In this document: one piece after another, positions 57,920 to 63,169 of the stretch
Numbering within the stretch: the first letter of the stretch is position 1
How the letters are laid out: the number at the start of each line of letters is the position of its first letter
From: Pseudoclavibacter endophyticus
GTDB taxonomy: Bacteria > Actinomycetota > Actinomycetes > Actinomycetales > Microbacteriaceae
NCBI RefSeq assembly: GCF_008831085.1
Contig: NZ_WBJY01000001.1
Coordinates: forward strand, 2,046,001-2,110,000
Direction of reading: 5' to 3'
DNA length: 64,000 nt
Translations under genes and position numbers: made by a program
Notes under the pieces: generated by a model
The model's database searches: none
Seen by the model: only the letters and a program-made list of their open reading frames with translations
Told to the model about the DNA's origin: nothing

Positions 57920-57951
57920 ATCTGAAACCACGTGGTGGCCACACGGTCAAG
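57920..57951 (-). promoter_or_regulatory. MerR-type promoter A (hydrolase)
   Basis: On the minus strand: CTTGACC, a 19-bp spacer with TGTGG-CCA-CCACG, then TCAGAT. It lies 53 bp before the hydrolase start. The pattern repeats at four further places in the next 6 kb. Confidence 0.7.
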
Positions 57952-58009
57952 ACCTCGGTCGGGCACCGGACCGATTGCGCTCAGTGGAACTCAGCTTCGT
58001 GCTCGACGG

Positions 58010-58190
58010 CGGGATCCGTGTTGGCGGCGGCACCCGGAAAGTCACAAGCGCCCAGACGGCGGCGACCACCATGATTCCGGCCCCGGCCATCCGGTCACGA
58101 TGATCGCGTCCATGAAGGCATCCGTCGCGATCTTGAGGATCGTCGCACCGGACGGAGCCGCCGACTTCCGCCGATAGCAGCAATGCCTCG
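58010..58190 (-). pseudogene. C-terminal remnant of an MFS transporter with frameshift
   Basis: SGATILKIATDAFMDAIIVTG in one frame joins MAGAGIMVVAAVWALVTFRV in the next; together they are the last loop and helix of an EmrB/QacA-type carrier. No other part is present. The remaining 57868-58400 sequence shows no gene. Confidence 0.55.
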
Positions 58191-58399
58191 GCCATCGTCG
58201 TGAACGTATGTTGCGCGAACCCTGCCGCCAGGTCGTGTGAATTGGTGATAGCGGCGACGGCGCGGACTCGAGCTGAGCGACCACGGCATCCCAGTCACGG
58301 ACCGAAGTAGTGTCCCCACGCTACGGATCTCGTCACACTCGATGCGGGCGGAAAGGTGCCGTTCGTCTCATCCTCGGGCCCGCGCGTCCCGCCCCCTGG

Positions 58400-59686
58400 T
58401 CATGTCGACCGACGGTGCGCTGCCCTGCCGATGTGACCGATGACGGTGAAGCGGTGGTCCGCTCGGGAGTCGGGGTCGGCGACGATGCCATCCGGGTCGA
58501 CGACGTAGACATCGTGCCCGTCGAGGGATAGGCGACGCGCGACCTCGAGCAGCATGCGGCGCGCCACATCGTCGATCGAGTGGACCGCCGTGAAATCCAG
58601 GACCACCCGCGGCTCTTGGGGCACGGTGTCCACGACCTCGCGAACGATGCGCTCTGCGCCGGCGAAGCGGATACCTCCCTGCATCTCGAGGACGCGCATC
58701 GCCTCGGCGCCGCTGCCGCGAGCCTCATTCGCCCGAACGACCGAGCGCGCCGTCGGGGGCACTTCCATGACGTGTAGGCCCATGTCGTTCGAGTAGCGCT
58801 CGAACAGGGACACTCCGCGCGCGCTGTTGCCGTGTGCATCGAGCCGCGGCGAGAACGTGGCGATGCCGATCTGCCCCGGAAGCGCGCCGATCAATCCTCC
58901 GGCGACGCCGCTCTTCGCCGGAATACCGACTTGCGTCGCCCAGTCTCCTGCCGCGTCATACATGCCGCAGGTGGCCATGACGGTGAGCACCTGGCGCACC
59001 ACGGGCGCGGGGATCACCTGATCGCCCGAGAGCGGGTTCACTCCGGCGTTCGCCAGCGTCGCTGCCATTACCGCCAGGTCTCGCGTCGTGACCAGTACCG
59101 AGCACTGACGGACGTAGCCCTCGACGATCGCCGTCGGATCCTCCACGAGGACGTCCTGACTGCGGAGCATGTGAGCGATCGCGAGATTGCGGTGCGCGTG
59201 CTCCATCTCGGACGCACACATGTCGGCGTCGACATGCAGCGGCCGGTTGGCGAAGGCGGAGAGACCTCGCACGACGCGTGCCACACGGTCGTCGGCGCTC
59301 TCGCGATCTCGACCGGCCAAGGAGTGCACAGTGATAGCGCCGGCGTTGATCATGGGGTTGCGCGGGCGTCCCGATCCCGGTTCAAGAGAGATTTCATTGA
59401 ACGCCTCCCCCGACGGTTCGACGCCGACCTTGGCGTGCACGGCGTCGAAGCCGCGATCCGCAAGCGCCAGCGCGTAGACGAACGGCTTCGAAATCGACTG
59501 GATGGTGAACTCCACGTCGACGTCGCCGGAGCCGTAGATCTCGCCGTCAACGGTGGCGAAGGCGGCGCTCAGCAGATCGGGGTCTGCTGTGGCGAGTTCC
59601 GGAATGTACTGCGCGCGTTCGCCCGAAGTGTCCGACCGCACCCCTTGGAGCACGGCGTCGAGATAGTCCGGCACCATCGACTTCAT
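58400..59686 (-). CDS. glsA: Glutaminase (GlsA) with C-terminal STAS domain
   Basis: 428 residues. The glutaminase domain (about 1-300) has the serine-lysine pair S64-IS-K67 in TIQSISKPF, EPSGEAFNEISL, RPRNPMINAGAI, and AAKSGVAGG-like IPAKSGVAGGLIGALPG. It hydrolyses glutamine to glutamate and ammonia. Residues about 335-425 form a STAS domain (VVLDFTAVHSIDDVARRML), as in human/actinobacterial long glutaminases, maybe for regulation. Start ATG 59686 after GGAGG. Copy B of the MerR-type promoter is upstream. Confidence 0.93.
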   Translation of the reverse strand: MKSMVPDYLDAVLQGVRSDTSGERAQYIPELATADPDLLSAAFATVDGEIYGSGDVDVEFTIQSISKPFVYALALADRGFDAVHAKVGVEPSGEAFNEISLEPGSGRPRNPMINAGAITVHSLAGRDRESADDRVARVVRGLSAFANRPLHVDADMCASEMEHAHRNLAIAHMLRSQDVLVEDPTAIVEGYVRQCSVLVTTRDLAVMAATLANAGVNPLSGDQVIPAPVVRQVLTVMATCGMYDAAGDWATQVGIPAKSGVAGGLIGALPGQIGIATFSPRLDAHGNSARGVSLFERYSNDMGLHVMEVPPTARSVVRANEARGSGAEAMRVLEMQGGIRFAGAERIVREVVDTVPQEPRVVLDFTAVHSIDDVARRMLLEVARRLSLDGHDVYVVDPDGIVADPDSRADHRFTVIGHIGRAAHRRST

Positions 59687-59735
59687 ACGCAGATCCTCCG
59701 TGCTCCACCCGCGGTCGCGCCGCGACAATGCGCTC

Positions 59736-59767
59736 ATTCGACACCATGTTGTCGCAACACGGTCAAG
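59736..59767 (-). promoter_or_regulatory. MerR-type promoter B (glutaminase)
   Basis: CTTGACC, a 19-bp spacer with the perfect dyad TGTTG-CGA-CAACA, then TCGAAT. It lies 50 bp before the glutaminase start. Confidence 0.75.
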
Positions 59768-60028
59768 TCGCCCGTCGAAGCGGTGGCGCTCACCTTGACC
59801 GGGTGTCGACCACCCCGTTTCGACTGGGGTGACATCCGCGACGTCCCCGAGACGGATGCCGCCATTGTCATCCTGCTGGTGCCGTTGCAGTCAGCGGGGA
59901 TCAGCACGCGGATTCGCGGCCCTTCGACGACCCCCGCCTCGGAGGCGCACGCGGCGGGTTGACGCCGCGCGACTCCGGCGTGCGGTCCGGTGTCGCCGGA
60001 TCACACAGACCCGGTGACACCAGATCGG

Positions 60029-61807: not shown

Positions 61808-61874
61808 GGTCTTCTCCTCATCTGCTCGCGACGCCGGCGGCGTCGCACCCGCCGCCAATCGGCCGGTCAGAGGC

Positions 61875-61906
61875 AGTCCACACGCTGTCCTGACCACCGG
61901 GTCAAG
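61875..61906 (-). promoter_or_regulatory. MerR-type promoter C (TAP-like hydrolase)
   Basis: CTTGACC, a 19-bp spacer with GGTGG-TCA-GGACA, then TGGACT. It also contains the palindrome TGACC-4-GGTCA. Confidence 0.7.
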
Positions 61907-61954
61907 CGGTGAGGTGGCGCCGGCGAGAGAGTCGCGCACCTCAGGATGCGCGGC

Positions 61955-63019
61955 TCACCGACCGTCGACCTCCTCGGCATCGTGGCGCTGTGCGAACGCC
62001 CAGGCGATCCGGGTGACGTCCGGTCCTGCCGTGTCGGTGAACAGACCCCTGCTGTTCGGGTGGGACCATGAGTGCGCGAGCAGGTCCGCGAAGACGTACT
62101 CGACGAGCACCCGCCCCTCCGGAGTGCTCACTGTGGTGTGCTCGTATCCGTACTGCCGACCCGCCGGCGGGTGCTCCACGGTGACGGTGACGAGAGCGAG
62201 ACTCTCGTTGAGCATGCCGTCGTCGATCAGGTCGTGCACCGCGATCCAGTGATCGACCAGCCTCTCGCCGACGATCGTCGGGACGACTTCATCTCGGCCG
62301 CCCTGCACGACCAGCAGGGGAAGGGGTCGGGCTCGATCACCCATTTGCGCCCACGCCTGTCGCGCGGTGGCGCTCGCAGGCGTGGAGTCCGGGTCGTCTG
62401 GATCCACCTGATTGAGGCCGTACTCGCCCCCGGCCACCGAGGTGACGGTGGCGAACACGTCCGGATACGTGGCGCCGAGGATCACGGCGGCCCCGGCGCC
62501 CGACGACGCACCCGAGACGTGCACGCGATCAGCATCCGCATCATAGGTGGATACGACCTCGCGTACCACTCCCGCCAGCAGCGCGGGTTCGCCGGACCCG
62601 CGTACCTGATTGCGGGGGTCGGCGGAGTTCCAGCAGTTGACGTCGCTCTCGAAGGGCCGCTGGGTCGGGTAGACGACGATGAAGCCCTCCTGGTCGGCGA
62701 GGACGTTGAACTGAGTTGCTTCCTTCATCGAGTTCCATCCGAACCCGGTCATGCCGCACCCGTGCAGCGCCATCATTATCGGCAGCTCCGTGGACCCGTC
62801 GTGCTGGGGCGGAAGGTGCACCTGGTAGTGCTTGCGGGTGCCGTCCGACGACACATAGACGTGGTTGCGGTCGTTCGCGCCGCTCCACCAGGGCAGCCCG
62901 AACTGGAAGACGAGGCCGAGCGCGACGACGGCGATCGTGGGCATCGCTACGGCGAGGCCGACGAGCCAGCGCCACCTGCGCCGTCGGCGCGGGGCGGGGT
63001 CCCCGGGAGACTTCTTCAT
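61955..63019 (-). CDS. PHB-depolymerase/LpqC-type esterase, membrane-anchored or secreted
   Basis: 354 residues. A basic RRRRRWRW start and one helix (near 17-42) form a signal anchor. The esterase domain has MMALHGCGMTGFGWN, the nucleophile motif SGASSGAG, Asp in QGGRDEVVP and a C-terminal HSWSHPNSRGLF that carries the catalytic His. Relatives are feruloyl esterases, acetyl-xylan esterases and short-chain PHB depolymerases. Start ATG 63019 with GAGGGG upstream. Copy D of the promoter lies 40 bp upstream. Confidence 0.9.
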   Translation of the reverse strand: MKKSPGDPAPRRRRRWRWLVGLAVAMPTIAVVALGLVFQFGLPWWSGANDRNHVYVSSDGTRKHYQVHLPPQHDGSTELPIMMALHGCGMTGFGWNSMKEATQFNVLADQEGFIVVYPTQRPFESDVNCWNSADPRNQVRGSGEPALLAGVVREVVSTYDADADRVHVSGASSGAGAAVILGATYPDVFATVTSVAGGEYGLNQVDPDDPDSTPASATARQAWAQMGDRARPLPLLVVQGGRDEVVPTIVGERLVDHWIAVHDLIDDGMLNESLALVTVTVEHPPAGRQYGYEHTTVSTPEGRVLVEYVFADLLAHSWSHPNSRGLFTDTAGPDVTRIAWAFAQRHDAEEVDGR

Positions 63020-63058
63020 GTTCGCAATTCCCCTCGACTGCTGCTGTTTCGGCTTCCG

Positions 63059-63090
63059 ATCCAAGACCGTGGCCTGACCACAGGGTCAAG
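63059..63090 (-). promoter_or_regulatory. MerR-type promoter D (esterase)
   Basis: CTTGACC, a 19-bp spacer with TGTGG-TCAGG-CCACG, then TTGGAT. TGACC-ACAG-GGTCA at the -35 end is palindromic, as in copy C. Confidence 0.75.
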
Positions 63091-63137
63091 TCGGTTGCCG
63101 CATCGGAGGCCACACCGCCGGGGTCGGCCGAACCCGA

Positions 63138-63169
63138 CTTGACCATGTGCTCACAACATGACTTCGACC
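63138..63169 (+). promoter_or_regulatory. MerR-type promoter E (28-residue peptide)
   Basis: CTTGACC, a 19-bp spacer with ATGTG-CTCA-CAACAT, then TCGACC (weak -10). It is divergent from copy D by about 50 bp and lies 35 bp before the small gene. Confidence 0.6.

Follow-up and report, generated by a model that had tools for sequence, protein, structure and literature searches.

Candidate operator-promoter boxes of an undescribed MerR subfamily in Pseudoclavibacter endophyticus and other actinobacteria

Descriptions of MerR-type activators usually name one promoter or a few. Among them, the TipA class (TipAL of Streptomyces, SkgA, AlbA) comprises multidrug-sensing activators with an all-helical ligand domain, and the multidrug activators BmrR, Mta and BrlR use a promoter geometry of the same kind as reported below. 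Here we describe a repeated promoter element, the box, in a stretch of 64,000 nucleotides from Pseudoclavibacter endophyticus (the window, C1:2046001-2110000), which also encodes the MerR-family regulator MerR1. An original prediction, made from the letters of the window, had proposed five such promoters ahead of genes for a hydrolase, a glutaminase-STAS protein, a TAP-like peptidase, an esterase and a 28-residue peptide as a local regulon. Judged by sequence comparison, the boxes are likely (probability about 0.8) to be operator-promoters of an undescribed subfamily of MerR activators which run a local gene set; a description of this subfamily was not found.

The locus resembles the TipA class in the MerR DNA-binding half, the dyad in a long promoter spacer and a helical C-terminal domain of about 120 amino acids. 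MerR1 consists of a DNA-binding domain with dimer helix (residues about 1-105) and an uncharacterised all-helical C-terminal domain (about 106-223). The DNA-binding half, with its N-terminal winged helix-turn-helix of MerR type, is an ordinary MerR fold; the dimerisation helix (residues 62-103 in the structure model, block predicted local distance difference test score 83-96) is covered by the CadR and MtaN alignments. BmrR, Mta and BrlR share the N-terminal fold, but sequence and structure matches stop at about residues 1-105 and leave the ligand domain unmatched. From the heavy-metal sensors (MerR, CueR, CadR, ZntR) MerR1 differs by the extra C-terminal domain and by the lack of Cys metal ligands, as there is no Cys among its 223 residues. 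Its scores also fell far under the NCBIfam equivalog cut-offs (CadR-PbrR 35.5 bits versus 151.45). SoxR belongs to the MerR family as well, but its Cys cluster (CIGCGC in the local SoxR-like gene) is missing from MerR1, which thus lacks the C-terminal [2Fe-2S] cysteine cluster of SoxR. The SoxR-like gene itself (C1:2118029-2118478; region 8029-8560 of L025, the stretch right of the window) faces a divergent gene, with a different dyad of its own, TTGACatcaagtcgacttgacg, between the two.

Boxes in the window and in the genome

All five predicted promoters were found in the sequence, and the spacer from TTGACC to the -10 hexamer measured exactly 19 bp in 5 of 5 sites. The proposed dyad TGTkG-nCA-CnACA is present; the shared dyad is wider and reads ACC-n-TGTkG-nnn-CnACA-n-GGT in the five sites, its first ACC belonging to the -35 box. 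The general box consensus is TTGACC-n-TGTkSynnSnACA-n-GGT-n-TnnnMT. Scores were obtained with a matrix of 176 distinct sites from other species, a collection which came from a matrix seeded with 16 sites, 5 of these being the sites under test.

57920..57950, minus strand: box 1, TTGACC-N19-TCAGAT, 26.9 bits
59736..59766, minus strand: box 2, TTGACC-N19-TCGAAT, 44.3 bits, the strongest in the window
59795..59825, plus strand: box 2b, weak, 20.0 bits, 2 mismatches in the degenerate-pattern search
61875..61905, minus strand: box 3, TTGACC-N19-TGGACT, 32.7 bits
63059..63089, minus strand: box 4, TTGACC-N19-TTGGAT, 30.8 bits
63139..63169, plus strand: box 5, TTGACC-N19-TCGACC, 25.6 bits, second weakest in the window

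Using a cutoff of 5 bits, the scan of the window returned the five boxes and box 2b as the sole extra match, while first-order Markov randomisations of the window (n = 100) reached a maximum of 12.9 bits and the reversed window gave 0 matches. Box 2b points away from box 2 in divergent orientation, and an intact gene downstream of it was not recognised.

The original prediction had called for a genome-wide scan. In the 3.26 Mb genome (6 contigs) a degenerate box with up to 2 mismatches occurred at 11 sites, all within C1:2103920-2124008, with 0 in the control. A second pattern with up to 3 mismatches, the reversed control of which gave 1 match per strand, also recovered the site at 63139 and nothing outside this segment. 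In total, 12 boxes lie within 20 kb, six inside the window and six beyond its right end. The proposed regulon is local, as predicted, and extends beyond five genes and beyond this organism. The right-hand boxes lie in L025, the next 18 kb, which was scanned with the matrix from other species' sites:

L025: box before a 201-amino-acid protein, a membrane protein by look, 35.7 bits
L025: box before a DUF4260 protein, 41.7 bits
L025: box before an MFS transporter, 31.8 bits
L025: box before an SDR enzyme, 36.2 bits
L025: box before MerR2, the second MerR regulator, 40.0 bits
L025: box before a small membrane protein divergent from MerR2, without Pfam match, 38.4 bits

Linkage of the boxes to a MerR subfamily

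Co-occurrence of boxes and MerR genes was assessed in 299 genomes of the family and 345 of the class, 13 being in both samples. In the family sample, which included the own genome, a box (up to 1 mismatch) was present in 12 genomes and a MerR1 homologue (E ≤ 1e-20) in 39, and 12 of 12 box genomes carried the homologue (hypergeometric p 4.6e-12, not corrected for kinship of the genomes). The box was located within about 3 kb of the homologue in 11 of the 12, and directly upstream of a merR gene in G017 and G232. Of 29 anonymous loci from the family (L040-L068), each about 3.7 kb long and surrounding a MerR gene, 25 had a box of at least 20 bits. In the class sample, exact boxes were seen in six genomes (G000, G078, G194, G258, G500, G536), all of which carried the subfamily. 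G536 has two further sites far from its cluster; the regulon is therefore not always local.

A scan of species genomes with MerR1 yielded 79 named loci, the nearest from Isoptericola (66-68% identity) and the remaining ones from other Micrococcales, Micromonosporaceae, Streptomyces, Nocardiopsis, Rhodococcus and others. The unrefined 31-bp matrix from the 16 starting sites alone matched 195 times in 77 of the 79 loci (control 0), and a fourth pass of refinement raised this to 238. Boxes of at least 14 bits were found in 77 of 79 loci, compared to 0 in the same DNA reversed. The merged readings held 194 site rows of at least 22 bits, 13 of them from the two own-genome stretches, in which two sites were listed twice. 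Over many genera the dyad arms vary, with ACC, TGT, ACA and GGT nearly fixed. A probe of the 21-bp dyad columns only, taken from sites picked by the full matrix and counting both readings of a palindrome, gave 289 matches in the 79 loci and 0 in the reversed control. A T....T hexamer stood at spacer 19 in 56% of the 289 matches, versus 0-12% at each of the other 14 spacers within 17-31. The dyad in the 19-bp spacer and the co-occurrence with one MerR subfamily agree with MerR-type promoters under one shared type of regulator, as had been predicted, and the co-occurrence suggests that a protein of the subfamily binds the box.

A mobilizable Streptomyces anulatus plasmid (L149) holds two MerR genes, one 41% identical to MerR1, besides alpha/beta hydrolases and a GPP34 gene. 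Two weak box variants (26.9 and 19.0 bits) lie there between a merR and a hydrolase gene.

Several observations weigh against the reading of the boxes as operators of this subfamily. Refinement of the matrix used the very 79 loci that had been selected through MerR; L085 and L137 possess the MerR gene and no box of at least 14 bits, and the best box of L090 reaches only 17.9 bits. In G021, the exception of the family sample, the box is far from the MerR genes. The link is looser in the class sample, where a box (up to 1 mismatch) was found in 14 genomes, the subfamily (E ≤ 1e-30, 8 or 9 candidates scored per genome) in 35 and both in 9. The five genomes with a box and no subfamily match (G400, G457, G475, G484, G504) have 1-mismatch sites only, with TCA replacing the ACA arm in three of them, and in G573, one of the 9, a TCA-arm variant is on a different contig from its MerR. 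In the window, an own box upstream of MerR1 was not found with the other-species matrix, and box 5 lacks both the GGT of the right arm and the final T of the -10, its right arm and -10 thus being degenerate. Among relatives of the target genes, no box was found just upstream of the esterase genes of L103 and L074, and 7 of 7 glutaminase relatives in other genomes as well as the organism's own second copy had no box of at least 15 bits within 1.5 kb upstream.

Target genes and the recurring cluster

The right part of the window contains the following genes and relics:

55427..56098, plus strand: MerR1, MerR-family regulator, 223 amino acids
56180..56284, minus strand: hydrolase C-terminus relic (tblastn, 35 amino acids), 86% identical to the intact gene at 57025
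56436..56582, minus strand: small membrane protein relic (tblastn, 73% identity over 49 amino acids)
56610..56882, plus strand: GPP34-family relic, C-terminal part (tblastn, 56% identity over 93 amino acids)
57025..57867, minus strand: alpha/beta hydrolase (Abhydrolase_1), box target, kept in other species
58400..59686, minus strand: glutaminase-STAS (Pfam PF04960 1.6e-111, STAS 1.1e-07)
60029..61807, minus strand: TAP-like peptidase (Abhydrolase_1, Abhydrolase_4)
61955..63019, minus strand: PHB-depolymerase-type esterase (Pfam PF10503 2.7e-21; NF050058 over cut-off), N-terminal hydrophobic stretch
63204..63290, plus strand: possible 28-residue hydrophobic peptide open reading frame, read from sequence
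63522..64000, plus strand: start of a LuxR-type regulator of 919 amino acids, ending near C1:2112281 (L025 1-2281), GerE domain 1.3e-13

The glutaminase start was set at the ATG after GGAGGAT because the box abuts the start of the longer reading frame; the NF002134 match begins at residue 18 of that frame. A second glutaminase-STAS-like gene (G000:C1:1121310-1122578) is 54% identical to the window copy. By comparative evidence the predicted regulon appears real, with the 28-residue peptide as its weakest member: its box is present as had been proposed, but weak, and no relative of the peptide was found in the 79 loci (best E 4.1).

Relatives of the window hydrolase (77-83% identity) occurred in 7 of 79 loci with a box upstream in 6 of the 7 (L108 being without), and visual inspection of the aligned upstream regions showed the box as the principal conserved block ahead of the coding start. 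In L069, L070, L102 and L103 a subfamily merR gene follows within about 115 bp downstream of the hydrolase, and therefore one box could serve both. All three relatives of the TAP-like peptidase (66-77% identity) had a box upstream. For the esterase, with five relatives, the upstream scan gave a box in L107 and L071, and in L121 it lies 175 bp upstream of the matched region.

Box targets were grouped by similarity; own sites were included, and some genes with two boxes ahead were counted twice. Among the targets listed, the small membrane protein was the most common (at least 41), followed by merR itself (at least 22), TAP-like peptidases (at least 15) and a group of at least 12, ten of which are GPP34 by their position while the rest run into a merR. 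Window-type hydrolases accounted for at least 9, DUF4260 proteins, ABC ATPases and an unnamed group for at least 6 each, PHB-type esterases, beta-lactamase-fold, SDR and CPBP-type membrane proteins for at least 4 each and RidA-like proteins for at least 3, besides other targets, the names ABC, CPBP, RidA and beta-lactamase-fold being a reading of the sequences with no family search behind them. In Paractinoplanes pyxinae (L098 14905) a box lies 6 nucleotides before a 915-amino-acid reading frame resembling an ATPase-LuxR-type regulator; such regulators may therefore be box targets. The MFS transporter of L025 (5700-6742) has, besides its box, an inverted repeat near the start and an adjoining TetR-type gene, and may be subject to dual control.

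Other species share much of the gene set, again with boxes. Microbacterium flavescens (L103) combines hydrolase, DUF4260, MFS with TetR, SDR, esterase, LuxR-type regulator, GPP34 and small membrane protein genes with two subfamily MerRs and seven boxes. The cluster of Oerskovia flava (L102) has hydrolase, DUF4260, SDR, the 201-amino-acid protein, a LuxR-type regulator, two MerRs and five boxes. Loci above 20 kb carried a mean of 4.8 boxes with two MerRs (n = 11) versus 1.7 with one (n = 55; p 6e-7).

Candidate regulators and alternative explanations

The genome gave 14 MerR-type matches, two of them clear subfamily members: MerR1 and, outside the window, MerR2 (C1:2123091-2123864), which are 47% identical and share the residue run TTVNTVRHYH. 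A third, more distant relative lies at C1:1416720. The original prediction had named the gene at 55427 as regulator and as the only intact MerR gene nearby. It is of the right subfamily, and it stands alone up to the window end (another MerR-type gene in the window is at about 27488), but two more follow within 25 kb to the right. MerR1 as regulator is plausible but not established. MerR2 is an equally good or better candidate because two boxes (C1:2123921 and 2123978) adjoin it, one each for MerR2 and its divergent neighbour, and none is at MerR1.

Following established MerR biology, a MerR dimer would bind the dyad ACC-n-TGTkS-nnn-SnACA-n-GGT inside the 19-bp spacer, which would be too long for RNA polymerase; ligand binding would distort the DNA, so that -35 and -10 align and transcription starts. 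MerR1, MerR2 or both would in this way run about a dozen separately promoted genes, for which we propose the hydrolase, glutaminase, peptidase, esterase, DUF4260, MFS, SDR, two membrane protein and MerR2 genes. The same box tag around one MerR family suggests a shared trigger. Our best guess is an antimicrobial or other foreign compound, as in TipA- or BmrR-like responses, because hydrolases, a transporter and membrane proteins are mixed in the gene set. The peptide or ester signal raised in the original prediction gained neither support nor contradiction.

A narrower explanation, which has a real chance of being correct even if we would not bet on it, is that only MerR2 reads the boxes, with MerR1 a decaying or differently tuned copy and its partner genes relics. 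MerR2 has as neighbours two good boxes (40.0 and 38.4 bits) together with the small membrane protein gene and a GPP34 gene, an arrangement common in other species, and MerR1 without a box is followed by relics of exactly these two kinds of genes. The interval between MerR1 and the hydrolase (56180 to 56882 or 56906) holds pieces of hydrolase, small membrane protein (kin of the commonest box target in other species) and GPP34 genes, and the same kinds accompany the subfamily in 7, 47 and 30 of the 79 loci, respectively; MerR1 therefore probably once headed its own core cluster, which has perhaps decayed. On the other hand, MerR1 is full-length with an open reading frame and has retained the TTVNTVRHYH run. 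In a tree of 94 MerRs, the bootstrap of which was not settled, it groups with Isoptericola MerRs (support 100/93) which sit in box clusters. The wider, weakly supported group (87/54) has eight members, one of them (L100) on a long branch, and all eight come from genomes that carry another MerR of the subfamily, an argument for the pair being maintained. MerR2 falls into a 100/99 group with Microbacterium, Labedella and another Microbacteriaceae sequence.

A bolder reading, speculative and rather unlikely in its full extent, sees the cluster as a portable chemical-response island of actinobacteria. Two paralogous MerRs whose sensor domain is undescribed, in many cases together with one LuxR-type regulator, would govern an exchangeable set of hydrolases, transporters and redox enzymes, each of which would join by bringing its own copy of the box. 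The arrangement box-hydrolase-merR would then act as a feedback loop, with the hydrolase breaking down the compound that MerR senses.

Control of the cluster by the LuxR-type regulator at 63522, with the MerR link secondary, is improbable. A homologue (at least 40% identity over 400 amino acids) was found in 11 of 79 loci and lies divergent next to a MerR1-type gene in five (L070, L071, L072, L073, L122), with 54-56% identity in four of these. However, boxes are present in 77 of the 79 loci and the LuxR gene in only 11 of the fetched stretches, and an operator within a 19-bp spacer is the geometry of MerR promoters. The usual binding site of LuxR activators lies upstream of the -35. Equally little, or slightly less, is to be said for a mobile or duplicated promoter segment copied along with genes and having no present regulatory role. 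The clusters are modular and shuffled, relics of duplicated genes exist, and the weak variants on the Streptomyces plasmid stand next to two MerR genes, but the box is the main conserved block (by eye) upstream of the hydrolases, and arms varying around nearly fixed ACC, TGT, ACA and GGT are as expected for a protein site. Plain sigma-70-type promoters alike by chance can practically be dismissed, as TTGACC and TnnnnT are ordinary promoter elements but randomised windows stayed at or below 12.9 bits versus 25.6-44.3 bits for the five boxes, no further copy was found in 3.26 Mb outside the 20-kb stretch and a 19-bp spacer suits unaided polymerase poorly.

Reading the boxes as operator-promoters of the MerR subfamily, one operator marks a dozen neighbouring genes, each with a promoter of its own, and recurs in clusters around one MerR subfamily in loci from Micrococcales, Streptomyces, Micromonosporaceae, Streptosporangiaceae and Rhodococcus. 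With the consensus, the regulon can be delimited in further genomes of actinobacteria, and candidate ligands can be tested directly with a reporter. A regulator is thereby proposed for many genes of unknown function, among them those of DUF4260 proteins, GPP34 genes and TAP-like peptidases.

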